Below are positions 17,367 to 48,297 of a DNA stretch of 64,000 nt, piece after piece. Position 1 is the first letter of the stretch. Each line of letters opens with the position of its first letter. Source of the DNA: Paragyromitra xinjiangensis (Eukaryota; Ascomycota; Pezizomycetes; Pezizales; Discinaceae); contig JBCAMK010000008.1 of NCBI GenBank assembly GCA_038503065.1, forward strand, positions 682,001-746,000, read 5' to 3'. Made by a program: the position numbers and the translations under genes. The notes under the pieces are model-generated. The model had not been told where the DNA came from and made no database searches. It saw nothing but the letters and a program-made list of their open reading frames with translations.

Positions 17367-17480
17367 TACAAATAAATACCTCCCCGTTTTTCAAACCAAT
17401 TCCTAAAAAAAAAATAAAACAAAACTAAAAGGAAAGAAAATCAAATCGATCATCCCCCTACTTATTCGTAACAGAAATTT

Positions 17481-28376: not shown

Positions 28377-31300
28377 ATAGCCGTTCATTAGTCTTAATAT
28401 CATCTCGTTCATACAACAGTTGTACTGAGGAGGCCTGATAGGCCGAAATCGCTGGATCGATATGCAACTTCTCCTAGTTAATACCCAGCTCAGAACAATA
28501 ATCGATACCTGCACAGAAACCTGCTCAACGATCATTGACATCGTTGGTTGCGCTAGTATCACAGTACAAACAGTCATGTCTACAGGCTACACCCCATACA
28601 ATGACGGCATGCGTAAGACCTTGTCCGAGAGACAAAAGGCAAAGCGTCAGCGAAGCCATAGCCCTAGTGGAAACCCACCATTGAAGAGAAGACTAGAAGA
28701 ACCGCCAGCACAGCCAGTACATGGTCAGAGGCCTATACTGAAGGCTGAGTTGAACTGGAAGGTGCGGAAGCATATCAACAGGTGCCATGGTAAGTTCCTG
28801 TTTGATACTGGCTGCACCGGACCTATCCTCAGCGAGGAGTTTGTGAGGAAGGAAGGGATACCAACGGAGAAGCGTGAGGTTCCCATCCAGATGCTTGATG
28901 CCCAGGGTGACCTGATGATGGGAGCTGGCGAGTATTTTACTGCCCCCCTAGACATGGTCATGGGCAAGCATGAGGAACTGATCCGTTGGGAGGTTGGACC
29001 CCTAGAGGGAGGCATCTCCGGGTATCTGCCTATCTCATGGGCACAGAAGCACAACCCAGACATCGATTGGCATACCGGCCGCATCCATTGGCGTTCCGAT
29101 TACTGCCACAAGAACTGCATCCCCACTGACGTCCACATAGAGGTGTGCGAAGACTGGGAGATGATGGCAGAAGACCGGACCAATGTGCACCAGATTGGAG
29201 CTGCGGTTTGGCATGATGATAGCGGAGGAGATGTGAGCCTGAGGCTACCAGCGGAGTACAGGGAATGGGCGGATGTCTTCAGCAATGAGAAGAGCTCAAA
29301 GCTGCCGGAGCATGGTGCTTTCAATCACCACATCAACCTACAACCAGGAACAAAGCCACCGTTCGGGCCCTTGTATGCTTGCTCTGAATCCGAGCTCAAG
29401 GCCCTCCGGGAGTTCCTGAACAAGGCCCTACCATCTGGAAAGATATCCAGATCCAATTCCCCCGCCGCTGCGCCTATCCTGTTCGTTCCTAAGCCTAATG
29501 GTACTCTCCGCATCTGCGTTGACTACCGGGGCCTTAACAGGATCACAGTAAAGGACAAATACCCACTACCGCTGATGTCTGAGTTGAGGGACAGGCTGAG
29601 AACCGCTAAGGTCTTTACCAAGATTGACCTGAAGGATGGGTTCAACCTGTTGAGGATAGCCAAAGGGGACGAGTGGAAGACGGCGTTCAGGACCCGGTAT
29701 GGCTTGTATGAGTACAATGTCATGCCCTTCGGCCTCTGTAATGCCCCTTCGTCGTTCCAGGCTATGATCAATGAGGTGTTGCATGACCTATTGGATCTGG
29801 GCGTGATAGTATACTTAGATGATATACTTACCTACACAGAGACAATTGGGGAGCATCAACGCCTCGTTCAGAAGGTGCTGCAGAGGCTTCGAGAGGCAAG
29901 TCTGCATGCAAACATAGACAAGACCTTCTTCCACTTAAAAGAGGTTGAGTACTTGGGATACCAGATCTCCGAGCGTGGCATCTCTATGTCAAAAGAGAAG
30001 GTCAACGCCGTGAAGGACTGGCCAGTCCCTAGGAACGTGAAGGATGTGCAAGCCTTCCTAGGCTTTGCCAACTTCTACCGCAGGTTCATCGCCGGGTTTA
30101 GCAAGGTGTGCAAACCATTGACTGACCTGCTGAGGAAAGAAGGGAAGTGGCACTGGACCGCTGCCTGTGACAGGGCTTTCGAGGAACTCAAGCAGCTGTT
30201 CACCAGCGAGCCTATCTTGGTCCACTTCCACCCACAGAGACGCACAGTTGTAGAGACTGATGCTTCTGACTTTGCGAAGGGAGCTGTGATGTCCCAATAT
30301 GGCGAGGATGGCAAGCTGCATCCTGTTGCTTTCTATAGCAAAAAGCACTCGCCAGCTGAGATCAACTATGACATCCATGACAAGGATATGGGTGCCATAG
30401 TAGCTGCGTTCCGGGAATGGGAGCACCTTCTTAAGTCCGTTGAGGGAGAGGTTGTGGTCTTCACCGATCATAAGAACCTAGAGTACTTCAACAGTACTAA
30501 GGTTTTGACCCGCCGGCAGGCCAGATGGGCTGAGGACCTGGTGGGGTTTGATTTCAAGGTCATCTATAGACCCGGTGAGAGGAATGGCAAGCCTGATGCC
30601 CTATCTAGTCGTAGGGATCACCGTCTGGGAGAGGGAGGTGAACCTGCTGCCCCACAGCCGCAGTTGTTTTTCCGTCCTGGACAGCTTGTCATGAACTCAG
30701 CCAGACTCAGTGCTGTGAGAGTTCACCAGCTGCAATCGCCGTTCCTGCAGAAGCTGAGAGACGCGTCGTTGGGAGATGAGCAGTGGCAAGGGATCTGTAA
30801 GGCTTTGGAGGAGAAGAAGACTGGACTCGACCAGGCGTTGTCCCTTTCCGAGGGACTGGTGTTCTTCAAGAACCGCTGGTATGTCCCGGAAGGCAGAGAC
30901 CTCCGGCAAGAGATCTTCTCTGAGAACCATGATAGCAGGATTGCCAGGCACTTTGGGCAGTACAAGACCGCTGAGAGGATCAAGGCGAACTTCTACTGGC
31001 CCAACATGGACAAGGACATAGAGGAATACGTCCGCAGCTGTGATAGCTGTCAGAGGAACAAGACAGCTCGCCACAAGAAGTATGGAGAGCTGCTTCCCTT
31101 GGAGATTCCCTATCGTCCTTGGGCCTCATCCTGCACGCGAAAAAGATCCCTGCAAAACTCCAAAAGCTACGTTGCAACGGCGTTACACACTGCAAAAAGT
31201 CTCTAAATCTTCGGCTTCATTTCTCACCACTTCCCCGCTCTCGCAACCTCTCATCGGGCGCATTGCCCCAACTCATCCTGGATCCGCCCCAAACTCCTCC

Positions 31301-31442
31301 CAGGAGATCCCGCACACCCTCCCCATCTCCTGTGAAGCTGGTGACCTTTGGCACCAACTTCACCCTCCCCCTCATCGGCAAAAAACGCACCCTCTCCAAC
31401 CCTTCACCAGCCCCCGCTCGCTCAGGATCCCCAACTAAACAA

Positions 31443-32858
31443 ATGGCGGCTCCTGGTCCCTCCACCGGTCAATCCCTATTCGACTCAGCTCATGCTGGTC
31501 CCTCCACCGATTCCCAATACATCGACGAAGCTCTCATGCAAGAACTCCCCGATGATTCTACCCCCAACTGGCTCAAAGACTTCAGTAAACATGAAGACTA
31601 CATGCCCGACGTTGACCACGAGGACTCCACTGAGCAATACCTCGCTTGGCTCTCCAAATCCAGCTTTGCCAGACTCCACTCTCAAGTGGAAGAAAATAAC
31701 ACCCACCTCCTCGCCAAAGTAGCCATGCAGGAGAACGACATCCTCCGACTTACGGATCAAACCAAGATCCTTCAGGAAATGGTTGGAAAACTCTCCACCA
31801 CCCTCAACAACATGGCCAGGTCTCTCCAAACAATTGACAAGAACACCAGCCAGCCCATTCGCACCCCGGCACCAGCCAACAACCAACAGAAACCCCAACA
31901 ACCAGCGCAAAAACCCCAAACGCCCCTCCTCAACGATGGAAAACCCATGACCTACGCACAAGCTGCGAATGCCCCTGGTGCCCCCTTCACCAAAGTCAAC
32001 AAGGGTAACAAGAAGAAGAAGGCCCTTCCCCCCAAGCTTTTCCAACCACAATTCACCACTATTAATCGCCAAATCATCCTCGAAACCTCTGCCGATGTCC
32101 CGGCCTCCATCGACAACTCCTCCCTCCTAGCTGCCATTAACAAGGAGCTTGCCCCACGCAACACCTCCATTCTCATGTGCACCAAAACTGCCAGACACAA
32201 CTTCGTCCTCACCACCAGACCTGACGAATCCGCTGAACAAATTTGCCAAGCCTACCAAAAAGAAATCGAAACGGCATGCACCCTACTAAAAATCCCTCTT
32301 GGTGAAGCCAGACCAAATTCTAAATGGTCGAAATTCATCATCCATGGAATCCCCACCAAAGCAACAATGGCAGACGTCGCAGAACAAATGTCAATTTCAG
32401 TACCAACCTTCACCCTCGCACAAACTCCCAGATGGCTCACAACCCCAGAGGCAAGAGCCAACAAAACCCACTCAGCCATTGTCATTGCCCTTCCACAAAA
32501 ATTCACGATGGAAACACTTGGTCTCTCCCAGATCCCCCTCTTTAACTCCTTCTGCCGCGTGCAAGAATACATCGCAGTCTCCCCCACCACACAATGCAGA
32601 AGATGCCAAGAATATGGTCATCATCAGCAAACATGCAAGAAAGAGTTCAAATGCGCAGTATGTGCGGAGACTCATGAAACCTCCAAACACCCCTGTACCA
32701 CCACTGGATGCCCTGCAGGCACCAAGTGCACACACCCTCCAATTCGCTGCGCCAATTGCAACCAAGGACACAAAGCCTACGAACGCAAAGTTTGCATTGC
32801 CTACACCAAGCTCACTGAGAGCCTCAAATCCTCCCGAACTAACAACAACACTGCTTAA
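31443..32858 (+). CDS. F1 ORF1 (471 aa), intact
   Basis: A Gag-like RNA-binding protein starting MAAPGPSTGQ, the first ATG in frame. A coiled coil lies at about residues 96-132 (ILRLTDQTKILQEMVGKL), then a Pro/Gln linker and basic KKKK patch, then the middle domain (KFIIHGIP, TPRWLTTPEARA). Zinc knuckles: CRRCQEYGHHQQTC at about 384, CAVCAETHETSKHPC, and CANCNQGHKAYERKVC at about 435. The frame stays open 5' of the ATG to the element start, with protein-level similarity to the E leader. The stop TAA overlaps the ORF2 ATG as TAATG. Confidence 0.88.
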   Translation: MAAPGPSTGQSLFDSAHAGPSTDSQYIDEALMQELPDDSTPNWLKDFSKHEDYMPDVDHEDSTEQYLAWLSKSSFARLHSQVEENNTHLLAKVAMQENDILRLTDQTKILQEMVGKLSTTLNNMARSLQTIDKNTSQPIRTPAPANNQQKPQQPAQKPQTPLLNDGKPMTYAQAANAPGAPFTKVNKGNKKKKALPPKLFQPQFTTINRQIILETSADVPASIDNSSLLAAINKELAPRNTSILMCTKTARHNFVLTTRPDESAEQICQAYQKEIETACTLLKIPLGEARPNSKWSKFIIHGIPTKATMADVAEQMSISVPTFTLAQTPRWLTTPEARANKTHSAIVIALPQKFTMETLGLSQIPLFNSFCRVQEYIAVSPTTQCRRCQEYGHHQQTCKKEFKCAVCAETHETSKHPCTTTGCPAGTKCTHPPIRCANCNQGHKAYERKVCIAYTKLTESLKSSRTNNNTA

Positions 32859-35800
32859 TGCAGCCACACCCAATCTCAACAGGCATAGCCATTGTGCAGC
32901 AACTGAACTGCGCCAAAGGACAGGCCTCTACTCTTTCAGTAATTCGGGACATTGATTCATCAAACAACATTCTCATCCAAATGCTACAAGAACCTTGGCT
33001 AGATCATAACGGCCTACCCCCAGCAGCAAACAACTTTGACGCATACTTTCCTTGTGTTTTTCCTAAAGTCGTTACTTATATTCGAAAGAATCTTAATATC
33101 AAAACAATCGTCACACTTAAACCCAATCCATATATAATTGCGGTCACCCTCCAAACGGCACATATCAAACTAGAAATATGCAACCTCTACCTTCAACCAC
33201 GGACCAACGATAATCACCATTTACCGATATTATCACACTCCTTTCACACCAACACCATATTAGCAGGGGACTTCAATCTACATCACCCTTGGTGGTACGG
33301 AGCAGAAGCAGAAACAGCTCATCGCTACTTTTCCAGACACATCCACCTCACTGAAACAATGACGGAATGGCTGGAAAACAACAACTTCAGACTCCTTAAT
33401 AAACCAGGAATCTTCACCCACTTTCCAAGAAACGGGAGTTCCCCCTCCATAATCGATCTCACCTTTGCAAGGGGCCTCACCGACATACAAGGACCATGGT
33501 CAGCCCCCTCCTCAGACGAACACAATTCGGATCACATCACTACGAAAACGATACTATACCTTCACCCCCCCTCCTACACACCCCGACACCTCTACTCAAA
33601 AACCAATTGGCCCAATTTTCACAAAATCATTCAGGAAGGAGCAATTCCCCTGGATTATAGAAATACACAAACAACTGAAAATACCCTCACCCACATCGAA
33701 AACCTCATCAATAGGGCCATTCAAAATACAGTCCCCCTTTCCAAACCAAAAATCGGAGCCAAAGCCTGGTGGACACCACAATTATCCACCCTCAAACATA
33801 AATTAGCTTGGCTAGAAAGACAACGACGCAAACCCAATTCCCCAACCAACATTCGACAACAGGCCAATCAATTAAGACAAACCTGGAAAGCCGAGATCAC
33901 CATAGCAAAGTGGAACCACTGGCACCGCACCCTCAAAGGCCTGAACCCAAGCGCGGCATGGAATCTATTAAACAAGTCCTCCGCTCGAAACAAATCCACA
34001 ATCCCAGCCATACAAGGCAACTCAACCAATGAAGAAATAGGCATAGCCTTCCGCCAAACCTTCTTTCCCCCTCAAAATGAACCACCTCCCTTCCCAAATA
34101 ACTTCCTACCCGACCCCCTCCTGGATACCAGCCATTCCACACACACCATCACCCCCCACGAGATAGAAAACCTACTGCAACATTCGAATATGCGCACAGC
34201 AGTAGGCGCGGATGGCTTCAACTACCTCACACTTAGAGAAGTACACAGAGCCCGTCCAGCACTCTTATCCACCCTATTCAACAATCTCCTCCAACTAGGA
34301 TACATGCCTGACAGATGGAAAATCACACATTGCGTTCCCATTCCCAAATCAAACAAAGCAGATTACTCAGACCCCAAGAGTTATCGCCCAGTCTCTCTAT
34401 TATCATGCCTGGGAAAAATACTCGAAAAAATCATAGCCAAAAGATTGGAACAATACGCCACTCTCAATGGAGCCATCCGTCCCCACCACACAGGTGCCAG
34501 AAGGGGCGTATCTGCTATAGATTCAATCCACCTGCTACTCACCCCCGCACAAAAACAACTTTTAATACCAATCACCAACAATGACCGGAAAACACAACGC
34601 TTACCTCCCCGGCCCACTCTCCTAGCCACAGATATAGATGGCGCTTTCAATTGCGTTTCTCACCCACACTTAATTCACATCCTACAACATTACCGATTTC
34701 CAAACTGGTGCATCAAATGGATGTCCAGCTTCACATCTAACCGCACCCTCGCCTTTAGAATCAACGGAAATTTAGAATCACCACTCCCGCTTAAAATAGG
34801 CCTCCCACAAGGCTCACCTTTATCATCAATAGCCTTTGTCATATACGCAGCTGCTCTTGACTCCACCTACACCTCCCCAAATGAATCCTCCACCATCTAC
34901 ATAGATGACGACACTGCCCTCCAGTTAGCAAAAACCCCACTCTTTGCCACCAAAAGATTAACGGAGAGACATGAAAAGAAGACACAGAGAGCTGCCTTCC
35001 TCAACATAACCTTCTCCGAACCCAAAACCGAGCTGCTTCACTTAATCCCCTCCAGCAGCAGCCTCACGATCAAGCAAGGCATACACCTCTTTAACAAAAC
35101 AATCGATCCATCTCCGCAAATCAAGGTACTAGGAATCATCCTGGACCAAAGATTGAACTTTCACACACACTGCCAAAAGGCAGCCTCCAGACTCCGGACG
35201 TCATTATTCCTAGTCAACAACCTCGTCAAAAGCAAGGGCCCAACACCTCACCTCCTACACCAATTAGTCCACACCATCATCCTCCCTGCAGCCCTTTTTG
35301 GCTCCGAAGTATGGTGGACCGGAACTTCAGACATCCTCCATCGCCTCACCCCCACCTATCACAAAGTTGCCCGACTCATAACTGGGCTCCCCAAATTCAC
35401 CCCCATCAACAAACTCCTACCGGAAGCGGGCTTACCCCCCCTCAACCTGCTACTAGACATGCGCACACAATCATATGCGATACGGATTCTACGTAATCCC
35501 AACAATCCTATTCACCACAGCCTACAACAACACATACGGCATAATAATAATTTCATAGGCACAGGCCTACAAAGAGTTGGCAGTGTCCTATCCAAACTCC
35601 TACGCGGCCCCCCACTCGAAGCCCTTTCACTACCCGCACACCCATTCCTTCCACAGAACAACATCCATATAATGGGCACCAAACAATCAGCAACCCTATC
35701 ACATACAGATTGGATAAACTCCCTCACTGATGCCTGGGTAGTCTATTCAGACGGTTCCAAATCTGAAAATGGCATCACCGCAGCAGGCTGGAACATCCGT

Positions 35801-36583
35801 CACATCTTCGCTGGAACCACCCTTCAGTCATACACAGGCAATTGTAACCTGGGACACCACTGCGAAAACGAAGACGCTGAGCTGCATGGAATCCAAGAAG
35901 CCATGTCATACCTCATCAAAAACTTACCCATAGACAACAACGACATCTACCTGTGCATCGATAATCAGAATGCAATTAAAGCATTAGCTGGTGGACCCAC
36001 ATCCAACAGACAGTTCCTAAATGACGCTCTTGCACACATCCAGACCCTACATAATCTCAACTGTTCAGTAACCGCTCGCTGGACCCCATCTCACATGGGC
36101 ATAGCAGGAAATGAAGCAGCGGATCGCATGGCCAAAGAAGGCCTCACCAAACATCCATGCAAACACACTTGCACAACCCTGGGCTGGCTTTGCCTACAAC
36201 CCAAATTGCAACTTTTGGCACAATGGCAACGAGAATCGCCCACAACAGTTTCCCTACATCCTCCTATAGTCATTAGATTTCTCCGACGATCTCAAGCGCG
36301 AGCCATCTCCTTACTACGCACAAATCAAACCAAAGCGGATCCAAATCCACTTACTCCTCCATCAACATGCGCATGCGGTGAAATATCATCATCATATCAC
36401 CTAGCCTTACATTGTCCATTGAACATCACATCACGTCCCCAATGGGGAAATGATTGGTACACAGCAATATTAAACAACACCAACGCGACCGACCTACTCC
36501 ACTTTATTCGAACGAATAACCTGGTTCAAATATCTTCGAACTCACATTTGGATGCAATTTCTAATTGCAATTTGCTCGATTAA
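32858..36583 (+). CDS. F1 ORF2 (1241 aa), intact endonuclease-RT-RNase H
   Basis: The endonuclease-RT that would carry out target-primed insertion. Endonuclease (residues 1-230): LNCAKGQ, LQEPWL, AGDFNLHHPWW, IIDLTFARG, SDH. RT: VGADGFN near 447, SYRPVSLLSCLGK, GLPQGSPLSS, YIDDDTAL near 681. RNase H from about 960: YSDGSKSENG, AELHGIQEA, CIDNQNA, WTPSHMGIAGNEAAD. A C-terminal CACGEISSSYH motif lies near 1170. All catalytic residues I can check are present. It starts on the TAATG overlap with ORF1, which suggests stop-restart translation. Confidence 0.9.
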   Translation: MQPHPISTGIAIVQQLNCAKGQASTLSVIRDIDSSNNILIQMLQEPWLDHNGLPPAANNFDAYFPCVFPKVVTYIRKNLNIKTIVTLKPNPYIIAVTLQTAHIKLEICNLYLQPRTNDNHHLPILSHSFHTNTILAGDFNLHHPWWYGAEAETAHRYFSRHIHLTETMTEWLENNNFRLLNKPGIFTHFPRNGSSPSIIDLTFARGLTDIQGPWSAPSSDEHNSDHITTKTILYLHPPSYTPRHLYSKTNWPNFHKIIQEGAIPLDYRNTQTTENTLTHIENLINRAIQNTVPLSKPKIGAKAWWTPQLSTLKHKLAWLERQRRKPNSPTNIRQQANQLRQTWKAEITIAKWNHWHRTLKGLNPSAAWNLLNKSSARNKSTIPAIQGNSTNEEIGIAFRQTFFPPQNEPPPFPNNFLPDPLLDTSHSTHTITPHEIENLLQHSNMRTAVGADGFNYLTLREVHRARPALLSTLFNNLLQLGYMPDRWKITHCVPIPKSNKADYSDPKSYRPVSLLSCLGKILEKIIAKRLEQYATLNGAIRPHHTGARRGVSAIDSIHLLLTPAQKQLLIPITNNDRKTQRLPPRPTLLATDIDGAFNCVSHPHLIHILQHYRFPNWCIKWMSSFTSNRTLAFRINGNLESPLPLKIGLPQGSPLSSIAFVIYAAALDSTYTSPNESSTIYIDDDTALQLAKTPLFATKRLTERHEKKTQRAAFLNITFSEPKTELLHLIPSSSSLTIKQGIHLFNKTIDPSPQIKVLGIILDQRLNFHTHCQKAASRLRTSLFLVNNLVKSKGPTPHLLHQLVHTIILPAALFGSEVWWTGTSDILHRLTPTYHKVARLITGLPKFTPINKLLPEAGLPPLNLLLDMRTQSYAIRILRNPNNPIHHSLQQHIRHNNNFIGTGLQRVGSVLSKLLRGPPLEALSLPAHPFLPQNNIHIMGTKQSATLSHTDWINSLTDAWVVYSDGSKSENGITAAGWNIRHIFAGTTLQSYTGNCNLGHHCENEDAELHGIQEAMSYLIKNLPIDNNDIYLCIDNQNAIKALAGGPTSNRQFLNDALAHIQTLHNLNCSVTARWTPSHMGIAGNEAADRMAKEGLTKHPCKHTCTTLGWLCLQPKLQLLAQWQRESPTTVSLHPPIVIRFLRRSQARAISLLRTNQTKADPNPLTPPSTCACGEISSSYHLALHCPLNITSRPQWGNDWYTAILNNTNATDLLHFIRTNNLVQISSNSHLDAISNCNLLD

Positions 36584-36856
36584 AGAATGAATATTGGTAA
36601 ACCGGGCGGGGGAAGTTTTTCCTTTGTTTCCGGTTATTGGGAATTTCATTTAATATATTTTATGTTTGTTTAGTTTGATTTTCTTTTGGTTCGAAGTGTT
36701 ATGTTGTTTTGTTATGTTTCTTATTTCTGTAAGTTTGGTTATTACGGGGAAGAGAGGTTGGCGGTGGATGAGGTCATGTATTCTTATACGCGTACCATTC
36801 GGTTAGCTAGTTAGGTTAGCGATCGTCTAAAATTAAATGAAATTGGAAATTGGAAA
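36584..36856 (+). other. F1 3' UTR with conserved end
   Basis: T-rich text, then GTTGGCGGTGGATGAGG (36757-36773), a hairpin GTAT-TCTT-ATAC, GCTAGTTAGGTTAGCGA and the AAATTGG tail. The last ~100 nt are nearly the same in all four F copies, including the ORF1-only ones. Confidence 0.75.
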
Positions 36857-37203
36857 TTGGGCCTCATCCTGCACGCGAAAAAGATCCCTGCAAAACTCCA
36901 AAAGCTACGTTGCAACGGCGTTACACACAGCAAAAAGTCTTTAACTCTTCGGCTTCATTTCTCACCACTTTACCCCGCTCTCAGTTTTCACGGTCGCAAC
37001 CCGTGGAAATCACACTGGATCCTCCACAAACACCTCCTAGACACTCAGCTTCACCCTCCCCATCACCTGTCAAGTTGGTGGACGTGCGCCTGCCACCCAT
37101 CTTCACCAAAGGGAACGGTCGCAAGAAGAAAGACCTTCCCAGGAAGCGTCAGCTTTCCAACCCTTCACCTCAACCAGCCAGAACCCCATCTCCATCAAAA
37201 GAA

Positions 37204-38523
37204 ATGGCTCTCTTTGGCTCCACTGCACTATCTGCTTTCGCAGATGATCTCGACATGGGGGAATCTTCCTCCTCTGCCCTCCCACCGCAGCAACCCAACG
37301 CCCCCCCCTCTCACCTTCCATTCTCCCCTGACCAAGACTACGCTCCCGAAGTCCCAGCAGAGGAGGAGGGCAAAGACGTCCAGCAATATATGCTCTGGAC
37401 AATTCAGAACAGCTTTGCAGCCTTAACGGAGCAAATGCAACTCAACCAGCAAGCTCTCATAAACAGGCTGGATCACCAAGCATCCGACATTCTCACCCTC
37501 ACCTCCCGCATCAATGAGCTCTCCAGAGCCAACAATGCCCTCTCCTCCCTGGTCAGAGATATCTCCACCAAACCCACCACCCCTCTCGTCCCACACCCAG
37601 CCCCGGCCCCCTCACAGGCTCCCGGCCCAAAAACCACCACATATGCGCAAGCCGCCGCTGCTCCTGCCACCACCACTACAAACAAGACCAAGAAACCCAA
37701 GGTCACCCCCCTCTACAACCCTGAGTACACAAAGATCAATCGCGAGATCATTGTGGAAACCTCAACCTCCTCCCACGAAATCACCAGTGACGCCCTCTTG
37801 AAGGCTATCAACATCACTCTCTCCCCTCGCAATTCTTCCATCCTTATGTGCACTAGAACAGAAAGATACAACTTTGTTCTCCTCACCCGACCCACAGAAT
37901 CTGGCGAACAAGTCTGCTCTCTCTATCAGAGAGAGATTGAAGAAGCCTGCAACCTCCTCCACCTACCCATCTCCGACGTGCGACCCAATTCCAGATGGTC
38001 CAAGTTCATCATCCACGGCGTTCCCACCACTACTACCATGAAAGAAGCACAGGAGGCCATCGCCACTGCTGCACCTTCCCTTACTCTCGCCCAAATCCCA
38101 CGCTGGCTCACAACTGAAGCCCAGAGAGCTGGGAAAGCAGCCTCAGCCATTGTCATCGCCCTTCCCAAAAAATACAGTATGGCAACCCTTGGGCTAACCT
38201 ACATCCCCATGTTCAATAAATCCTGCCGCGTCCAGGAATACTTTTCAATTTCTCCCACCACACAATGTCGGAAATGTCAGCAATATGGTCACCATCAGCA
38301 GACCTGCCACAATACCATCGCCTGTGCTATCTGCGCTGAGCCCCACCCAACAGCCCAACACCCATGCAGTACCAAAGGATGCCAAAAAGGAGCCAAGTGC
38401 ACCCATCCCCCCATCAGATGTGTCAACTGCAAACAGGGACACCGCGCCTTTGAGTGCTCCTCCTGCACTCACTTTGCCAAACTCACTCTGGCAAAACGCA
38501 CCCTTCATCCGGCAAACGCCTGA
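37204..38523 (+). CDS. F2 ORF1 (439 aa), intact
   Basis: It starts MALFGSTALSAFADD. A coiled coil lies at about residues 79-120 (ILTLTSRINELSRANNALSS), then a Pro/Ala linker, a middle domain (KFIIHGVP, QIPRWLTTEAQRA) and three zinc knuckles from about 354 (CRKCQQYGHHQQTC, CAICAEPH, CVNCKQGHRAFEC). It is clearly diverged from F1 ORF1, so F2 and F3 are their own sublineage. In its leader, one base is shifted relative to F3 (near 36968). Confidence 0.88.
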   Translation: MALFGSTALSAFADDLDMGESSSSALPPQQPNAPPSHLPFSPDQDYAPEVPAEEEGKDVQQYMLWTIQNSFAALTEQMQLNQQALINRLDHQASDILTLTSRINELSRANNALSSLVRDISTKPTTPLVPHPAPAPSQAPGPKTTTYAQAAAAPATTTTNKTKKPKVTPLYNPEYTKINREIIVETSTSSHEITSDALLKAINITLSPRNSSILMCTRTERYNFVLLTRPTESGEQVCSLYQREIEEACNLLHLPISDVRPNSRWSKFIIHGVPTTTTMKEAQEAIATAAPSLTLAQIPRWLTTEAQRAGKAASAIVIALPKKYSMATLGLTYIPMFNKSCRVQEYFSISPTTQCRKCQQYGHHQQTCHNTIACAICAEPHPTAQHPCSTKGCQKGAKCTHPPIRCVNCKQGHRAFECSSCTHFAKLTLAKRTLHPANA

Positions 38524-38940
38524 TCTGCCCACTTTGCCCACCCCTCTCACCAACAACAACGATTTCCTGCCTGTAAAGGATGTGCGGTTGGTAAGAGACC
38601 ATACTTACTGTTTTCTTGTTGCATTGTTTTTATATTTTTTCATTTGGCAAGTTTCGTTTACCTTGATCAAGTTTTCTTTTAGCCTACCTTTTGTCTTATT
38701 TTCTTATCCGCTAAGCTTGAATTTCCCCTCGTGGTATTCTTGTATGCTTTCTTTTGTGCTTCCTCGTGGCCTGTCCTGTAACGGAACGTGCGGTTGGTCT
38801 CGTACCATAGAGACTGTAACTTGGGAGTGTAGGGGTTGTGAGGTTGGCGGTGGATGAGGCCATGTATTCTTATACGCGTGCCATTCAGTAGCTAGTTAGG
38901 TTAGCAACTGTCTAAATAAATTGAAATTGGAAATTGGAAA
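38524..38940 (+). other. F2 3' UTR
   Basis: About 415 nt. The phrase GTGCGGTTGGT occurs twice (about 38583 and 38790), each followed by a GAGACC or TACCATAGAGAC variant. Then come GTTGGCGGTGGATGAGG (38843-38859), the hairpin and three AAATTGG units. Confidence 0.65.
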
Positions 38941-39288
38941 TTGGGCCTCATCCTGCATGCGAAAAAGATCCCTGCAAAACTCCAAAAGCTACGTTGCAAC
39001 GGCGTTACACACTGCAAAAAGTCTTTAACTCTTCGGCTTCATTTCTCACCACCTTTACCCCGCTCTCAGTTTTCACGGTCGCAACCCGTGGAAATCACAC
39101 TGGATCCTCCACAAACACCTCCTAGACCTTCAGCTTCACCCTCCCCATCACCTGTCAAGTTGGTGGACGTGCGCCTGCCACCCATCTTCACCAAAGGGAA
39201 CGGCCGCAAGAAAGGCCCCATCCCCAGGAAGCGCCAGCTCTCTGACCCCTCACCCCAACCAGCCAGAACCCCATCTCCCTCAAAAGAG

Positions 39289-40608
39289 ATGGCTCTCTTT
39301 GGCTCCACTGCATTGTCTGCCTTCGCAGAAGATCTCGACATGGGGGAATCTTCTTCCTCAGCCCTCCCACCCCAGCAAACCAGCGCCCCCCCTTCCCACC
39401 TCCCTTTCTCCCCTGAACAAGACTACGCTCCCGAAGTCCCAGCAGAAGAGGATGGCAAAGACGTCCAGCAATACATGCTCTGGACCATCCAGAACAGCTT
39501 CGCAGCCTTAACGGAGCAAATGCAACTCAACCAGCAAGCACTCATCAACAGACTGGAGCACCAGGCATCCGACATTCTCACCCTCACCTCCCGCATCAAC
39601 GAGCTCTCCAGAGCCAACAATGCCCTCTCCTCCCGGATTAGAGACACCTCTACCAAACCCAGCACCCCTCTCGTCCCACACCCAGCTCCTGTTTCCCCAC
39701 AGGCTCCTGGTCCAAAAGCCACCACATATGCGCAAGCCGCTGCTGCTCCCGCCATCACTACCACGAACAAGACCAAGAAGCCTAAGGTCACCCCCCTCTA
39801 CAACCCCGAGTACACAAAGATCAATCGCGAGATCATTGTGGAAACCTCAACCTCCTCCCACGAAATCACTAGTGATGCGCTTTTGAAGGCCATCAACATC
39901 ACTCTCTCCCCTCGCAATTCATCCATCCTTATGTGCACCAGAACAGAAAGATACAATTTTGTTCTCCTCACCCGACCCACAGAATCTGGCGAACAAGTCT
40001 GCTCTCTTTATCAGAGAGAGATTGAAGAAGCCTGCAACCTCCTCCACCTACCCATCTCCGATGTGCGACCCAACTCCAGATGGTCTAAGTTCATCATCCA
40101 CGGCGTTCCCACTACCACCACCATGAAAGAGGCACAGGAGGCCATTGCCACTGCCGCACCTTCCCTCACTCTTGCCCAAATCCCACGCTGGCTCACAACC
40201 GAAGCCCAGAGAGCTGGGAAAGCAGCCTCAGCCATTGTTATCGCCCTTCCCAAAAAATATACCATGGCAACCCTTGGATTAACTTATATCCCCATGTTCA
40301 ACAAATCCTGCCGCGTCCAGGAATACTTCTCAATTTCTCCCACCACACAATGTCGGAAATGTCAGCAATATGGTCATCACCAGCAGACTTGCCACAACAC
40401 CATTGCCTGTGCCATCTGCGCTGAGCCCCATCCAACGGCCCAACACCCATGCAGTACCAAAGGATGCCAAAAAGGAGCCAAGTGCACCCATCCCCCCATC
40501 AGATGTGTCAACTGTAAACAGGGACACCGCGCCTTTGAGCGTTCCTCCTGCACTCACTTTGCAAAACTCAATCTTGCAAAACGCACCCCTCATCCGGCAA
40601 ACGCCTGA
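39289..40608 (+). CDS. F3 ORF1 (439 aa), intact
   Basis: The same architecture and length as F2 ORF1, with only scattered substitutions: N-terminal MALFGSTALSAFAED, coiled coil, middle domain and three zinc knuckles. One knuckle position differs: F2 has RAFEC and F3 has RAFER, so the last Cys of the third knuckle is lost in F3. Confidence 0.88.
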   Translation: MALFGSTALSAFAEDLDMGESSSSALPPQQTSAPPSHLPFSPEQDYAPEVPAEEDGKDVQQYMLWTIQNSFAALTEQMQLNQQALINRLEHQASDILTLTSRINELSRANNALSSRIRDTSTKPSTPLVPHPAPVSPQAPGPKATTYAQAAAAPAITTTNKTKKPKVTPLYNPEYTKINREIIVETSTSSHEITSDALLKAINITLSPRNSSILMCTRTERYNFVLLTRPTESGEQVCSLYQREIEEACNLLHLPISDVRPNSRWSKFIIHGVPTTTTMKEAQEAIATAAPSLTLAQIPRWLTTEAQRAGKAASAIVIALPKKYTMATLGLTYIPMFNKSCRVQEYFSISPTTQCRKCQQYGHHQQTCHNTIACAICAEPHPTAQHPCSTKGCQKGAKCTHPPIRCVNCKQGHRAFERSSCTHFAKLNLAKRTPHPANA

Positions 40609-41027
40609 TCTGCTTATTTTGCCCTCCTCTCATACCAACAACAACGATTTCCTGCCTGTAAAAAGGATGTGCGGTTGGTAAGAGACCATACTTACTGATT
40701 TCTTGTTGCATTGTTTTTATATTCTCATTTGGCAAGTTTCGTTTACTTTGATTAAGTTTTCTTTTTAGCCTACCTGTTGTCTTATTTTCTTACTCGCTAA
40801 GCTTGAACTTCCCCTTGTGGTGATCTTGTACGTTTTCTTTTGTGCTTCCTAGTGGCCTGTCCTGTAACGGAACGTGCGGTTGGTCTCGTACCATAGAGAC
40901 TGTAACTTGGGAGTGTAGGGGTTGTGAGGTTGGCGGTGGATGAGGCCATGTATTTTTATACGCGTGCCATTCAGTAGCTAGTTAGGTTAGCGACTGTCTA
41001 AAATAAATTGAAATTGGAAATTGGAAA
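40609..41027 (+). other. F3 3' UTR
   Basis: Collinear with the F2 3' UTR: the paired GTGCGGTTGGT phrases, GTTGGCGGTGGATGAGG (40929-40945), the hairpin and three AAATTGG units. Confidence 0.65.
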
Positions 41028-41348
41028 TTGGGCCTCATCCTGCACGCGAAAAAGATCCCTGCAAAACTCCAAAAGCTACGTTGCAACGGCGTTACACACT
41101 GCAAAAAGTCTCTAAATCTTCGGCTTCATTTCTCACCACTTCCCCGCTCTCGCAACCTTTCATCGGGCGCATTGCCCCAACTCATCCTGGATCCGCCCCA
41201 AACTCCTCCCGGGAGATCCCGCACACCCTCCCCATCTCCTGTGAAGCTGGTGACCTTCGGCACCAACTTCAACCTCCCCATCATCGGCAAGAAGCGAAAC
41301 CTCTCCAACCCCTCACCAGCCCCTGCTCGCTCAGGATCACCAACTAAA

Positions 41349-42761
41349 ATGGCGACCCCTGGACCCTCCACCGGACAATCTCTTTTCGCTTCAGCAATTC
41401 ATGCTGGGCCCTCCACCGACTCCCAATACATTGACGAAGCCCTCATGCAAGAGCTCCCGGATGACTCCACTCCCAACTGGCTCAGAGACTTCAACAAGCA
41501 CGAGGACTACATGCCTGACGTCGACACGGAAGACTCTACCGAACAATACCTTGCCTGGCTCTCCAAATCCAGCTTCGCCCGACTTCACTCCCAAGTGGAG
41601 GAAAACAACACCCACCTCCTCGCCAAAGTAGCCATGCAGGAGAATGACATCCTCAGGCTCACGGATCAAACCAAGATCCTTCAAGAAATGGTTGGAAAAC
41701 TTTCCACCACCCTCAACAACATGGCCAGGTCCCTTCAAACCATCGACAAAAACACCAGCCAACCCACTCGCACCCCAGCGCCAGCCAGCAACCAGCAACA
41801 AAAACCACCTGCACAAAAACCCCAAGTCCCCCTCCTCAATGACGGAAAACCCATGACATATGCACAAGCTGCAAATGCACCCGCAGCGCCGTTCACTAAA
41901 GTCAACAAGGGCAAGAAGAAGAAGGCCCTTCCTCCCAAGCTCTTTCAACCCCAATTCACTACCATCAATCGCCAAATCATCTTGGAAACCTCTGCCGACA
42001 TCCCATCATTAGTAGAAACCTCCTCCCTCCTAACCGCAATAAACAAGGAGCTCGCCCCACGCAACACCTCTATCCTCATGTGCACCAAAACTGCCAGGCA
42101 CAACTTCGTCCTAACCACTCGCCCTGATGAGTCTGCCGAACAAATTTGCCAAGCTTATCAAAAGGAAATCGAAACGGCATGTACCTTGCTCAAGGTCCCC
42201 CTCGGCGAAGCCAGACCAAATTCTAAGTGGTCTAAATTTATCATACATGGCATTCCCACCAAAGCAACAATGGCAGAAGTCACAGAACAAATGGCCATTT
42301 CCGTACCAACCTTCACCCTCGCCCAAACCCCCCGTTGGCTCACAACTCCAGAAGCAAGAGCCAACAAATCCCATTCAGCAATCGTCATCGCTTTGCCACA
42401 GAAATTCACCATGGAAACTCTCGGCCTTTCACAAATTCCCCTCTTCAACTCCTTCTGTCGAGTACAGGAATACATTGCCGTTTCCCCCACCACACAATGC
42501 AGAAGATGCCAAGAATATGGTCATCATCAACAAACATGCAAGAAGGACTTCAAATGCGCAGTATGCGCGGAAGCTCATGAAACATTCAAGCACCCCTGCA
42601 CCACTTCTGGTTGCCCAGCAGGCACCAAATGTACACACCCTCCAATCCGCTGCGCCAACTGCAATCAAGGACACAAAGCCTATGAACGCAAAGTTTGCAT
42701 TGCCTATACTAAGCTCACCGAGAGCCTTAAATCCTCCCGAATTAACACCAACACTGCTTAA
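41349..42761 (+). CDS. F4 ORF1 (470 aa), intact
   Basis: Starts MATPGPSTGQSLFAS. Domains as in F1 ORF1, with about 90 percent or more visible identity: coiled coil, KKKK patch, KFIIHGIP middle domain and three zinc knuckles. It ends in TAATG with ORF2. Confidence 0.88.
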   Translation: MATPGPSTGQSLFASAIHAGPSTDSQYIDEALMQELPDDSTPNWLRDFNKHEDYMPDVDTEDSTEQYLAWLSKSSFARLHSQVEENNTHLLAKVAMQENDILRLTDQTKILQEMVGKLSTTLNNMARSLQTIDKNTSQPTRTPAPASNQQQKPPAQKPQVPLLNDGKPMTYAQAANAPAAPFTKVNKGKKKKALPPKLFQPQFTTINRQIILETSADIPSLVETSSLLTAINKELAPRNTSILMCTKTARHNFVLTTRPDESAEQICQAYQKEIETACTLLKVPLGEARPNSKWSKFIIHGIPTKATMAEVTEQMAISVPTFTLAQTPRWLTTPEARANKSHSAIVIALPQKFTMETLGLSQIPLFNSFCRVQEYIAVSPTTQCRRCQEYGHHQQTCKKDFKCAVCAEAHETFKHPCTTSGCPAGTKCTHPPIRCANCNQGHKAYERKVCIAYTKLTESLKSSRINTNTA

Positions 42762-45700
42762 TGCAGCCACACCCAATCCCATCAGGCATAGCCATGGTGC
42801 AGCAACTGAACTGCGCCAAAGGACAGGCCTCTACTCTTTCAGTAATTCGGGACATTGATTCATCAAACAACATCCTCATTCAAATGCTACAGGAACCTTG
42901 GCTAGATCACAATGGCCTACCCCCAGCAGCAAGCAACTTCGACATCTATTTTCCTTGCATTTTTCCTAAAGTTGTTACTTATATTCGAAAAAACCTCAAC
43001 ATAAAAACCATTGTCACATTTAAACCGAATCCAAATATGATTGCGGTCACCCTCCAAACTGCACACACCAAATTGGAAGTCTGCAACATATATCTCCAAC
43101 CTCGCGCTAACGATAATCACCATCTTTCATTATTATCACATTCTTTTCACACAAATTCTATTTTAGCTGGTGACTTCAATCTACACCACCCATGGTGGTA
43201 TGGAGAAGAAGCCGAAACCACACACCGATACTTCTCTAGGCACCTACACCTCACAGAAACAGTAACGGAATGGCTAGAGGAAAATAATTTCAGACTTCTC
43301 AATAAACCGGGCACATTCACACACTTCCCAGGAAATGGAAATTCCCCTTCCATCATCGACTTAACCCTCGCTAGAGGCCTTACAGATATATTAGGCCCAT
43401 GGTCAGCACCTGCCGCGGATGAACACAATTCTGACCACATCACATTAATAACCGTCTTATATCTACACCCCCCCTCCTATTTACCACGTCTTCTCTATTC
43501 AAAAACCAATTGGCCTACCTTCCACAAAACAATACAGGACGGAATTATTCCCCTCGATTACAGCAACACACAGGCAACTGAAACCACTCTCAATCACATC
43601 GAGAGCCTAATCAACAAAGCCATCCAAAACGCAGTTCCCCTATCCAAACCCAAAATACAAGCCAAAGCCTGGTGGACACCTCACCTTTCCACTCTCAAGC
43701 GCAAGCTAGCCTGGCTAGAAAAACAACGACGAAAACCAAATTCCCCACCAATCATCCGACACCAAGCCAACGAAACAAGACGCATATGGAAAGCCGAAAT
43801 CATCCAAGCAAAATGGAATCACTGGCACCTCACCCTCAAAGGCATGAACCCAAGCGCGGCATGGAACCTACTAAATAAATCCTCCGCCCGCAACAAATCC
43901 ACAATCCCAGCCATACAAGGCAACACAACCAACGAAGACATTGGGGCATCCTTCCGCCAAACCTTCTTCCCTCCCCAGAATGAACCTCTACCCCTCCCGA
44001 ATGATTTCTTACCCCCTCCCCTTTTAGACACCAGCGAATACACGCACATCATCACATCTCAGGAAATAGAAAATCTACTACAACATTCCAACATGCGTAC
44101 AGCAGTGGGAGCGGACGGCTTCAACTACCTTACCCTCAGGGAGGTACACAGAGCCCGGCCAGCACTCCTTGTTGCCCTCTTCAACAATCTCCTACAGTCA
44201 GGCCATATGCCCGACAGATGGAAAATCACACATTGCGTCCCCATTCCCAAATCGAATAAGGCAGATTATTCGGACCCCAAGAGCTACCGCCCGGTATCCT
44301 TATTATCTTGCCTAGGGAAAATCCTTGAAAAAATAGTAGCAAAAAGCCTGGAACGTTACGCCACTCTCAACGGAGCTATCCGACAACACCACACAGGAGC
44401 CAGAACAGGCGTATCTGCCATCGATTCACTCCACTTGATACTCACTCCCGCACAAAAACAACTTCTTATACCAATCACCAACAATGACCGAAAGACCCAG
44501 CGCCTACCACCCCGACCCACCCTCCTAGCAACAGACATAGATGGAGCCTTCAATTGCGTCTCCCATCCCCATCTAATTCAAATCCTCCAACATTACCAAT
44601 TCCCAAACTGGTGCATCAAATGGATGTCCAGCTTCACCTCCAACCGCACCCTCGCCTTCAGAATAAATGGCAATCTGGAACCACCACTCCCGCTTAAAAT
44701 TGGCCTTCCTCAAGGATCACCATTGTCATCAATCACATTCGTCATATATGCAGCTGCATTGGACTGCCCACACGCCCCTGCCAACGAATTGTCAACCATA
44801 TACATTGATGACGACACTGCACTTCAACTTGCAAAAACCCCACTATATGCCACGAAGAGGTTAACCGAAAGGCATGAGGCCAAAACCCAAAGGGCAAATT
44901 TCCTCAACATATCCTTCTCCGAACCCAAGACCGAGCTGCTCCACCTGATTCCTTCTAGCAGCAGCCTGTCAATAAAGCAAAGCATACATCTCTTCAATAA
45001 AACCATCAATCCATCTCCGCAAATCAAGGTCCTAGGCATTATACTGGATCAAAGATTGAACTTTCACACACACTGCCAGAAAGCAGCTTCCAGATTACGA
45101 ACATCGCTATACCTAGTCAATAATCTCGTCAAGAGCAAAGGCCCGACACCACACCTCCTACATCAATTAGCCCTCACCATCATCCTCCCAGCAGCCCTAT
45201 TTGGCTCAGAGGTATGGTGGACAGGCACCTCAGACATCCTTAACCGACTCAACCCCCCTTATCATAGAGTTGCCCGACTCATAACCGGCCTCCCCAAATT
45301 CACCCCCATCAACAAACTTCTGCCAGAAGCAGGATTACCTCCCCTCAATCTACTATTGGACATGCGCACACAACTGTACGCAATACGCATTTTACGCAAC
45401 CCCAATAATCCCCTTCATTACATCCTACAACAACATATACAACACAACAAATTCGTAGGCACAGGTCTACAAAGAGTTGGCAACATCCTCTCCAAACTCC
45501 TCCAAGGACCCCCACTTGAAGCCCTTTCCCTCCCTGCACATCCATTTCTCCCCCACAACAATATCCACATAGTGGGCACCAAACAATCGGCGACTTTATC
45601 CCATAAAGATTGGATAAACTCCCTTTCTAACGCCTGGGTAGTTTACTCAGACGGATCCAAATCCGAAACAGGCACCACCGCAGCAGGCTGGAACATCCAA

Positions 45701-46483
45701 CACATTTTTGCCGGAACAACCCTTCATTCACACTCAGGCAACTGCAACCTCGGGCACCAATGTGAAAACGAAGATGCCGAACTCCACGGCATACAGGAAG
45801 CCACTTCATACCTTGTCAAGAATTTACCAATAGACAACGCCGACATTTACCTCTGCATCGATAACCAAAACGCAATCAGAGCCTTAGCTGGAGGACCCAC
45901 ATCTAACAGACAATTTTTAAACGACACCCTATCGCATATCAAAACCCTCCACAACCTAAATTGTTCGGTCACAGCACGCTGGACCCCATCCCACATGGGC
46001 ATAGCAGGCAACGAAATAGCAGATCGCCTAGCCAAGGAAGGGCTAACAAAACACCCATGCAAACATACCTGCACGACACTGGGCTGGTTATGTCTCCAAC
46101 CCAAATTACAACTTTTGAGAGAATGGCAGCGGAATGCCCCCACCCCAGTCTCCCTACACCCTCCTCCTGTCATCAGATTCCTCCGACGATCACAAGCACG
46201 AGCCATTTCCCTACTACGTACAAATCAAACTAAAGCGGACCCGAATCCACTGACTCCCCTAACGACATGTGCATGCGGGGAAATATCATCACCAATCCAC
46301 CTGGCCCTACACTGCCCGCTAAACACCTCTTCACGCCCACAATGGGGAAGCAACTGGCACACAGCAATATTGGATAATACCAATGCAACCGATTTACTCC
46401 ACTTTATTCGTATGAATAACTTGGCTCAACTTTCCTCAAATTCATATTTGGACGCAATTTCTAATTGCAATTTGCTTGATTAA
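42761..46483 (+). CDS. F4 ORF2 (1240 aa), intact endonuclease-RT-RNase H
   Basis: All catalytic landmarks are kept: LNCAKGQ, LQEPWL, AGDFNLHHPWW, IIDLTLARG, SDH in the endonuclease; GLPQGSPLSS and YIDDDTAL in the RT; YSDGSKSETG, AELHGIQEA, CIDNQNA, GNEIAD in RNase H; CACGEISSPIH at the end. With F1 it is the best candidate in the window for an active enzyme of family F. F1 and F4 differ by many substitutions, so they are separate insertions and not a fresh duplication. Confidence 0.9.
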   Translation: MQPHPIPSGIAMVQQLNCAKGQASTLSVIRDIDSSNNILIQMLQEPWLDHNGLPPAASNFDIYFPCIFPKVVTYIRKNLNIKTIVTFKPNPNMIAVTLQTAHTKLEVCNIYLQPRANDNHHLSLLSHSFHTNSILAGDFNLHHPWWYGEEAETTHRYFSRHLHLTETVTEWLEENNFRLLNKPGTFTHFPGNGNSPSIIDLTLARGLTDILGPWSAPAADEHNSDHITLITVLYLHPPSYLPRLLYSKTNWPTFHKTIQDGIIPLDYSNTQATETTLNHIESLINKAIQNAVPLSKPKIQAKAWWTPHLSTLKRKLAWLEKQRRKPNSPPIIRHQANETRRIWKAEIIQAKWNHWHLTLKGMNPSAAWNLLNKSSARNKSTIPAIQGNTTNEDIGASFRQTFFPPQNEPLPLPNDFLPPPLLDTSEYTHIITSQEIENLLQHSNMRTAVGADGFNYLTLREVHRARPALLVALFNNLLQSGHMPDRWKITHCVPIPKSNKADYSDPKSYRPVSLLSCLGKILEKIVAKSLERYATLNGAIRQHHTGARTGVSAIDSLHLILTPAQKQLLIPITNNDRKTQRLPPRPTLLATDIDGAFNCVSHPHLIQILQHYQFPNWCIKWMSSFTSNRTLAFRINGNLEPPLPLKIGLPQGSPLSSITFVIYAAALDCPHAPANELSTIYIDDDTALQLAKTPLYATKRLTERHEAKTQRANFLNISFSEPKTELLHLIPSSSSLSIKQSIHLFNKTINPSPQIKVLGIILDQRLNFHTHCQKAASRLRTSLYLVNNLVKSKGPTPHLLHQLALTIILPAALFGSEVWWTGTSDILNRLNPPYHRVARLITGLPKFTPINKLLPEAGLPPLNLLLDMRTQLYAIRILRNPNNPLHYILQQHIQHNKFVGTGLQRVGNILSKLLQGPPLEALSLPAHPFLPHNNIHIVGTKQSATLSHKDWINSLSNAWVVYSDGSKSETGTTAAGWNIQHIFAGTTLHSHSGNCNLGHQCENEDAELHGIQEATSYLVKNLPIDNADIYLCIDNQNAIRALAGGPTSNRQFLNDTLSHIKTLHNLNCSVTARWTPSHMGIAGNEIADRLAKEGLTKHPCKHTCTTLGWLCLQPKLQLLREWQRNAPTPVSLHPPPVIRFLRRSQARAISLLRTNQTKADPNPLTPLTTCACGEISSPIHLALHCPLNTSSRPQWGSNWHTAILDNTNATDLLHFIRMNNLAQLSSNSYLDAISNCNLLD

Positions 46484-46772
46484 AGAATGAAAACTGGTAA
46501 TCCGGGCGGGGGAAGTTTTTCTTTTGTTTCCGGTTATTAGGGATATTTCATTTATATTTTCTTTTGATTTATAGGATGCGATTATGTGTGTATGTGTTTG
46601 TTTGTTTTGTTTTGTTTTTGTTTTGAGTTTTTCTTTATTTATGTACGAGGGTTTTTATTAACGGGGAAGAAGAGGTTGGCGGTGGATGAGGTCATGTATT
46701 CTTATACGCATACCATTCGGTAGCTAGTTAGGTTAGCGATCGTCTAAATTAAATGAAATTGGAAATTGGAAA
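46484..46772 (+). other. F4 3' UTR
   Basis: T-rich stretch, GTTGGCGGTGGATGAGG (46675-46691), a hairpin variant GTAT-TCTT-ATAC and three AAATTGG units up to the target site. Confidence 0.7.
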
Positions 46773-47877
46773 TTGGGCCTCGATTTCTATGGACTTCATT
46801 GTGGGACTACCTGAGTCCGATGGGTACACCAAGGTGTGGGTCATAGTGGACCGCTTCTCCAAGATGGCTCACTTTATTCCACTACCAACGCTGAATAAGA
46901 CTGAGGACATGGCGAAGCTCTTCCTCACTGAGGTATGGAAGCACCACGGGCTCCCCGAGGACATAGTCTCAGACAGAGACAGCAAGTTCCTGTCCCACTT
47001 CTGGCAATCATTGATGGACCTCCTCTCAGTTAAGCTGAACCTATCGACGGCCTTCCACCCACAGACAGATGGCCAAACAGAACGGGTTAACCAGACGCTG
47101 GAGCAGTACATGCGTACGTACTGTTCTTATCAACAGGACGACTGGGCAGAGTCACTACCTCTTGCGGAGTATGCCTACAACTCTGCCATCTCCGAGGCTA
47201 CCAAGTACTCGCCGTTCTGTGCCAACTATGGGTTTGAACCTAGAACCAACTGGCCCAAACCGAAGCCGTCTACTGAGTGGAGCAACCCAGCGAGCGAGGT
47301 GATCATTTCACAGTGGGAGACTATCTGGGGACACATGAACGCAAACCTGGCAAAGGCAAGACTCCGGATGGCCTGGTGGTATGATAAACACCACATGAAG
47401 GCGCCAGAGGTAAAGCCTGGGGATGAAGTGATGCTTGATCGCCGCAATGTGCAAACAAAGCGGCCGATGAACAAGCTGGACCGCAAGAAGCTGGGTCCCT
47501 TTAAGGTTGTGAAGGCTGTGGGCAAGCGTGCTTACCAGCTAGACCTACCCCCGCAGATGAAGATTCATCCTGTGTTCCATGTTAGCCTACTGGAGCCATA
47601 CAAAGCTCCTGCAGACCCGCTGAGAAGAGTGCCCCTGCCGGAGCCAGAGGAGATAGAAGGCCAGGAGAACTGGGTGGTCAACGAGGTGGTGGATTCGAGG
47701 GTGAACAGGCAGGTGAAGAGGGTGGAATACCTAGTGCTCTGGGAAGGATTCGAACAGGAGGACGCTACTTGGGAACCATGGGAGAACCTGAAGAGGACTG
47801 CGGAGGATGCACTCCTGGACTTCCACAAACGCTACCCCAAGAAGCCTAGGGAGGCTCGAGTGAAGGGGCTATCATAG

Positions 47878-48065: not shown

Positions 48066-48297
48066 TGTAACGGGTACGCCATTACTGCCTCTAGTGTTTT
48101 AGTGTGTTTTAGTGTTTTAATTCTACGGCCCTGATACTAAAGTATATCGCCTCATCCGCCGCCAACTACAAATAAATCCTCCCCGTTTCTGAACCAATTT
48201 TTAACCATACTAAAGAAAAAATAATAACAATTTTTACGAAAAGAAATAATCGAAAAGAAAATCAAATCAATCATCCCCCTACTTATTCAAATAATTT

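Follow-up and report, generated by a model that had tools for sequence, protein, structure and literature searches.

A probable sequence-specific LINE family at the integrase Pro-Trp codons of gypsy chromoviruses in Paragyromitra xinjiangensis

The fungus Paragyromitra xinjiangensis carries a family of long interspersed nuclear elements (LINEs), here termed F, whose members are found again and again at one position in the integrase gene of gypsy chromoviruses, which are long terminal repeat (LTR) retrotransposons. The stretch under study, called the window, comprises 64,000 nucleotides (C8:682001-746000; contig JBCAMK010000008.1) of the 48.2-Mb, 22-contig genome, and holds one complete chromovirus whose integrase is split by four elements, F1 to F4. 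It is proposed that F is a sequence-specific LINE, probably inserted by target priming at the Pro-Trp codons of chromovirus integrases, with its tail pairing to TGG. A probability of about 0.9 is given to this reading, on the strength of sequence comparison. The insertion site is constant and regenerated, the insertions are mostly independent, a T at the right junction is derived from the tail, and the open reading frames (ORFs) are intact and under selection.

The F array in the integrase gene

The first copy of the site, CC-TTGGGCCTC, which the gypsy reads as the codons P-W-A-S, occupies positions 31119 to 31127. It is followed by F1 (31128..36856), a full-length LINE whose ORF1 frame runs to 32858, whose ORF2 (32843-36583) encodes an endonuclease, a reverse transcriptase (RT) and an RNase H, and whose tail starts at 36840. 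The second site copy (36857..36865) leads into F2 (36866..38940) and the third (38941..38949) into F3 (38950..41027); these two short, ORF1-only elements are 93% identical to each other. After the fourth copy (41028..41036) comes F4 (41037..46772), again a full-length LINE, with its ORF1 frame open to 42761 and its ORF2 at 42746-46483. A fifth copy (46773..46781) is joined to the remaining gypsy integrase. All of these features lie on the + strand, and F1, F2, F3 and F4 measure 5729, 2075, 2078 and 5736 bp, respectively. There are exactly five matches to TTGGGCCTC in the window (31119, 36857, 38941, 41028 and 46773), all on the + strand and all at F borders; over 100 shuffles, the mean was 1.07 and five was never reached.

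Each of the four elements opens with ATCCTGCA and closes with AAATTGGAAATTGGAAA ahead of the next TTGG. This bears out the initial annotation, in which F1 to F4 share one start point, the base after TTGGGCCTC, and finish in AAATTGG units. Its claim that excision of the array with one site copy restores the integrase frame also holds, as the gypsy pol frame is open through YRPWASISMDFIVGLP once the flanks are joined with a single copy. Its description of all four as copies of the LINE is right for F1 and F4, but not for F2 and F3, which lack ORF2.

In F1 and F4, ORF2 is open over about 1245 amino acids (aa). The Pfam domains Exo_endo_phos_2, RVT_1 and RNase_H are matched in the ORF2 of F1, and likewise in that of a sister family, G, described below. 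Between F1 and F4, identity is 83% for the DNA and 87% for the ORF2 protein, and a DNA identity as low as 83% means that the array is not a recent tandem duplication. The ratio of non-synonymous to synonymous substitution (dN/dS) between them is 0.053 for ORF1 and 0.072 for ORF2, which indicates purifying selection.

F ends across the genome

Two patterns for the 5' end (head) of F, derived from the window copies and, for pattern B, from fetched relatives, were searched with up to 3 mismatches; A gave 40 and B 66 matches, that is 106 heads, and the reversed-pattern controls gave 0. A tail pattern located some 45 bp upstream of the 3' end, and hence blind to the flank, gave 106 matches, of which the 100 listed, each with at most 1 mismatch, were analysed.

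Out of the 106 heads, 79 adjoin an F tail and 27 adjoin gypsy integrase at the same codons. All 28 heads that have no listed tail before them were read: 27 stand at the P-W-A/T codons of integrase and one at a diverged F tail. The flanks of F copies elsewhere, on which the initial annotation had made its claim depend, therefore agree with it for every head outside an array (27/27). The regeneration of the site by each insertion, also foreseen there, is seen in the site copies at all F borders of the window. From the other end, 78 of the 100 tails have an F head within 30-49 bp downstream, and 19 of the remaining 22 continue directly into gypsy integrase. One further tail (L111, on C15) reaches integrase after another insertion of about 0.25 kb, and another (L052, on C4) leads into a split F head. 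At this last locus (C4:1828789), roughly 15 bases of the head are present before an oppositely oriented, AATA-tailed element interrupts it.

The census of targets identified 41 integrase sites, 22 of them with an F right end (AATTGG or GATTGG) and 19 empty (CC[CTA]TGG). The idea that a well-conserved integrase motif would offer many targets is thus only half sustained. The motif is conserved indeed: tryptophan is found in 95 of the 96 related integrases that have P-x-x-x-[IVLM]-x-x-D (120 proteins were examined, 24 being without the motif or too short). The targets, on the other hand, are few, with 41 found and 22 used. TGG is the sole codon for Trp. The catalytic Asp is presumably that of the MD in the motif, which would put the F site just upstream of the first catalytic Asp.

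Site variants and the presumed priming position

The two head patterns go with two kinds of gypsy. All 13 gypsy-flanked A heads are in P-W-A-S gypsies (12 at TTGGGCCTC, one at CTGGGCTTC), and all 14 gypsy-flanked B heads are in P-W-T gypsies (nine at CTGGACCTC, one at TTGGACCTC and four at ATGGACACC). Inside arrays, the lineages can mix, as one A head lies within a B array on C7.

At the PWTS sites, TTGG is found in 8/8 F right ends, but in 0/12 empty gypsies, which have CTGG or ATGG. Among the 10 PWTS left flanks with ACCTC, nine read CTGG and one TTGG. Thus, at least the T at the start of TTGG in the right junction is, as a rule, contributed by the LINE tail (AAATTGG), and such a T is the trace to be expected if the RNA tail pairs with the cut strand. 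It follows that the true duplication is of 5-8 bp; of the 9-bp site duplication initially described, the site copies are present, but the tail supplies at least the first T.

Two features of a sequence-specific LINE are found in F, namely an ORF2 with endonuclease and RT, and an identical insertion base in independent copies. The steps of insertion may then be pictured as follows. In CCN-TGG-RCC-TCN, the F endonuclease would nick the antisense strand close to the Trp codon, TGG. The F RNA, by the AAAUUGG units of its 3' end, would pair with the freed CCA end and be copied there by target-primed reverse transcription. A second cut, 5-8 bp further on and after ...RCCTC, would let the end of the cDNA be joined. 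Cutting by F's own enzyme, the pairing of the RNA and the order of the cuts are what we infer from the junctions. The site would be rebuilt on both sides and so could be used again, and its repeated use would lead to head-to-tail arrays. Elements with ORF1 only, having both F ends, could ride along, and the sister family G would act likewise at its LTR site, with a different tail.

The sister family G and the K element as a control

The ORF2 of G is 40% identical to that of F. In the window, three G elements stand on the - strand at TACTGCCTCTAGT, a site 17 bp in from the start of the LTR, and both LTRs of one gypsy are occupied. The one in the 5' LTR (17298..22933) lies between site copies at 17285-17297 and 22934-22946. 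In the 3' LTR, one G element (48096..53750) is head-to-tail with the next (53764..59425), the latter being flanked by site copies at 53751-53763 and 59426-59438. The G tail consists of AAAACACT units overlapping ACTAG. Genome-wide, the LTR site is present at 97 of 99 G heads (up to 3 mismatches in 30). The right-side count came to 90 sites, and the letters available for 26 of them show 13 G tails, 11 empty LTRs and 2 unclear cases. The ORF2 of G2 and G3 is under purifying selection (dN/dS 0.073). The spacing of G heads is 5.6-5.7 kb in 29 pairs and 355-357 bp in 16 (for example, C9:1384311 and C9:1384666); the shorter spacing, by itself, points to a predicted non-autonomous G form of about 345 bp at the same site.

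The K element (23349..25634, + strand), with an ORF1-like ORF and a tail of AATA units, also lies in the 5' LTR, which it splits at CCCCGGAAGTACGG with a 14-bp duplication. K was considered as a third site-specific family and rejected, since the window site is present at only 1 of 108 K heads genome-wide and the flanks of a related copy at about 10280-12498 are different; duplications of K are of about 14 bp at differing sites. As F and G are constant where K is at its window site in 1/108, the same method separates specific from non-specific elements.

Confinement to one cluster per contig

The K and G heads were mapped from 100 listed of the 108 K heads and 85 of the 99 G heads (mostly one per close pair). 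On each of the 22 contigs, these heads are confined to one stretch, 28-207 kb long. Almost all F heads (105/106) lie in these stretches or within about 65 kb of them; the only outlier is on C15, and no F heads were found on C11 or C17. One such cluster per contig suggests a candidate regional centromere on each chromosome. Most of the used gypsies are in these clusters, so F would end up in probable centromeres.

It may be argued that chromatin rather than sequence selects the site, F being drawn to clusters where the integrase site is merely common. The sharing of one cluster per contig by F, G and K speaks for this, and so does the distribution of the targets, as the clusters (edges padded by 50 kb) hold 21 of the 22 used sites, but 12 of the 19 empty ones (Fisher p 0.016). 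However, F and G are exact to the base, while K occupies the same clusters without a fixed site; the confinement to clusters has, therefore, a cause other than site choice. Chromatin is quite improbable as the selector of the site. It may act as an added bias, unable to set the base.

Independent insertion and its alternatives

The gypsy flanks were compared with the first F copy at the 17 loci with enough sequence, giving 136 pairs. For the 39 locus pairs whose gypsy flanks are at least 95% identical, F is lower by more than 2% in 37. Over all 136 pairs, F is lower by this margin in 83, and the other 53 are made up of 44 PWAS-PWTS cross pairs and 9 pairs within a kind; the flanks of PWAS and PWTS gypsies are only 54-79% identical. 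Independent insertion is hence favoured over array duplication or the spread of an F-bearing gypsy, as far as sequences can tell.

A different origin for the arrays would be tandem duplication or unequal crossing-over after a single insertion, and their head-to-tail order and the spacings repeated near 2.09 and 5.73 kb fit with it. For 49 of the 60 fetched F heads, there is a neighbour no more than 9 kb away, and in 10 cases this neighbour is the nearest relative, as duplication would have it. Nevertheless, identity is only 48-95% in 40 of the 41 neighbouring F pairs, many of which combine different element types, and F1 and F4 of the window are 83% identical. Near-identical neighbours throughout most arrays, which would favour duplication, were not observed. 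As the general origin of the arrays, duplication is thus very unlikely.

Still less credit is given to a piggyback origin, in which one F-carrying gypsy was amplified by its own retrotransposition and all F copies inherited its flank. This would readily account for the same flank and orientation of every F copy read at a gypsy. Yet, in the 26 locus pairs whose gypsy flanks reach 97.4% identity or more, identity between the F copies is 42-96% and differing types are included. There are also 19 empty sites and several site variants, and the arrays vary in length and membership from locus to locus. Moreover, a gypsy of 42.8 kb that has insertions in its pol and in both LTRs would hardly be expected to travel. 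Least probable of all is an assembly artefact in which LINE copies were joined end to end, given the 78 head-to-tail junctions among 100 listed tails, on many contigs and with different members, the TACAG duplication, which is exact, and the LTRs of equal length (709 bp) enclosing all inserts, and the integrase that is in frame across the array.

Several points weigh against sequence-specific insertion of F as proposed, or against its being the whole account. Local duplication of some copies is possible, in view of the 10/49 whose nearest relative is a neighbour. Among the heads and the 100 listed tails, no F end proved to have a flank that is clearly unrelated, but the flank of one tail (L110, C16:695933) is masked, as a K element starts 13 bp on. 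Six of the 106 tail matches are outside the list, and the reversed control of the tail search (up to 3 mismatches) gave 9. Very divergent or 5'-truncated copies could escape the head counts; the tail search can do without the 5' end. The letters of array junctions were read in the fetched loci; the others, which are many, are taken from head-tail spacing. One left flank (L076) reads TTGG, so the PWTS gypsies are not wholly without it.

Lastly, 4 of the 14 B heads, those of the GAGT type (for example, L086, L091, L102 and L109), are preceded by ACACC and not ACCTC, so their 5' junction differs by a few bases, while the 3' junctions seen retain ACCTC. A gypsy site variant, ATGGACACC, was considered for these heads and rejected, as it is absent from all 19 empty sites found, and the two copies whose tails are L045 and L067 have this type of head but terminate at TTGGACCTCAATC. 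ACACC is regarded as belonging to the 5' end of the GAGT lineage, with a lineage-fixed shift in the joining of the 5' end.

The ORF1-only elements

F2 and F3, of about 2.08 kb, have one ORF of about 560 aa that is related to ORF1; the ORF of F2 is 47% identical in aa to the ORF1 of F1. With F1 and F4 they have DNA in common over some 216 bp of the 5' end and over 110 bp of the 3' end (82-91% identity), and a further ORF1 stretch of 0.6-0.7 kb is 66-68% identical. Between F2 and F3, 24% of synonymous and 2.4% of non-synonymous sites in ORF1 differ. The resulting dN/dS of 0.084 indicates that the ORF1-only element has been maintained under selection as a lineage; between F1 and F2, the value for ORF1 is 0.26. 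F2 and F3 are thus a selected non-autonomous LINE that codes for its own ORF1 and has the ends and the target of F. The HAL1 elements of mammals are LINE derivatives with ORF1 only. F2 and F3 are like them in retaining ORF1 without ORF2, and unlike them in that the ORF1 of F2 is 47% identical to that of F1, yet the F ends and F target are kept.

Relation to known LINEs

The best relatives of the F and G ORF2, in a word-based search of 5.8 billion proteins, are about 25% identical. The names of the 10 distinct PDB chains matched by sequence are R2, LINE-1 or nothing more specific than reverse transcriptase-like. The RNase H in ORF2, a feature of Tad1 (the clade of fungal I-group LINEs) and also of other clades of that group, R1 included (PMC4640811), places F and G in the I group in the wide sense. 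In passages of PMC4640811, Kojima and Jurka state that the majority of target-specific families fall in early-branched, Tx1 or R1 clades. In a rapidly built tree of 50 proteins, without labelled Tad1, R1, I or Tx1 references and with the composition of F and G flagged, F and G group with the protein P0001 and a protein of the fungus Hirsutella (SH-aLRT 95), apart from a jockey-like protein of fly.

Tx1L, of the Tx1 clade, inserts into the DNA transposon Tx1D in Xenopus. F is similar in being a LINE aimed at another transposon; F and G differ from Tx1L in being two sister families at two sites of an LTR retrotransposon, one of them in a catalytic gene. SART1Bm of Bombyx belongs to the R1 clade. 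Its telomere target, (TTAGG)n, and its poly(A) tail are given in portions of PMC7265360, where target-like sequences in its 3' UTR (untranslated region) are proposed to pair with the cut strand. Like SART1Bm as portrayed there, F is a LINE that keeps to one site within a target present in many copies, and a similar 3' end pairing is proposed for it; unlike SART1Bm, F has a protein gene of another transposon as its target and ends in AAATTGG units. The LINE targets listed in parts of PMC4640811 and PMC8869645 are RNA genes, telomeres, microsatellites and some transposons.

In poplar centromeres, 30 of 58 full-length copies of the Celine LINE are inside CRM gypsy elements, each with a unique target site duplication (TSD), according to sections of PMC11288735. 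Celine and F are alike as LINEs in gypsy elements (centromeric in poplar), but Celine, on the same account, has no fixed site. Zepp and ZeppL of green algae are clustered by chromosome and form tandem arrays by nested self-insertion, as stated in extracts of PMC8226300. F shares with them the chromosomal clusters and the tandem arrays; in those extracts, however, they are of L1 type, are mostly 3' ends owing to 5' truncation, and target Zepp itself. In F, the 5' ends are mostly kept (106 heads against 106 tails, with no hint of the frequent 5' truncation that goes with self-insertion of the Zepp kind), the primary target is gypsy, and the site is rebuilt.

A LINE at a fixed base of a gypsy integrase with a sister in the LTR is not described in the titles and abstract beginnings of those open-licence PMC articles that were listed for LINE insertion into gypsy or LTR elements; Repbase Reports lie outside this scope, so the absence carries little weight. 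Site-specific LINEs and LINEs in centromeric gypsies are already known. What may be new, and this is put forward weakly, is the fixed integrase base together with a sister fixed in the LTR.

A wider picture is offered tentatively, at somewhat less than even odds. F and G could form a guild of sister LINEs, hyperparasites of a centromeric gypsy with one address each, the Pro-Trp codons for F and the LTR start for G. The priming of F would be anchored on TGG, the F lineages would track the diverging sites, and the self-renewing sites would build arrays of LINEs accounting for a large part of every centromere. Under such an arrangement, the gypsy could not escape by synonymous change, since TGG is the only codon for the near-invariant Trp.

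In this case, a LINE targets a catalytic gene belonging to an LTR retrotransposon and occupies 22 of the 41 sites that can be recognised, and the LTR is the target of a sister family. One genome thus makes testable the control of a parasite by a parasite and the build-up of centromeres rich in transposable elements. The evolution of site choice between close relatives also becomes testable, F and G having different sites and ORF2 proteins that are 40% identical. The tail-derived T serves as a natural read-out of the position at which reverse transcription is primed.

The host gypsy element

The chromovirus of the window spans 17268-60117 (42,850 bp) and is bordered on both sides by the 5-bp TSD TACAG (17263..17267 and 60118..60122). 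Inserts account for 34,946 of its 42,850 bp, with G and K in the 5' LTR, F1-F4 in pol and two G elements in the 3' LTR. The Rfam scan of the whole window gave 0 matches. The 5' LTR (17268..25925, +), split by one G and one K, starts with TGTAACGGG and ends with CCCCCGTTACA; the 3' LTR (48066..60117, +) is split by two G elements. Net of inserts, both are of 709 bp, and 11 of the 709 positions differ (98.4% identity, compared piecewise).

An open frame at 26069..28069 (+) is probably gag, with a weak DUF4939 match below the Pfam cut-off. The 5' part of pol (28429..31127, +), up to the P-W-A-S codons, has Pfam matches to RVT, RNase H and the H2C2 zinc finger of integrase. Downstream of the F array, the 3' part (46782..47877, +) has the integrase core (rve), SH3_Tf2-1 and the chromodomain. 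The element thus has what defines a chromovirus: a gypsy pol, an integrase followed by a chromodomain, LTRs and a 5-bp TSD. Among the best 120 matches to its pol, the closest named relative is from Morchella sextelata, at 69%.

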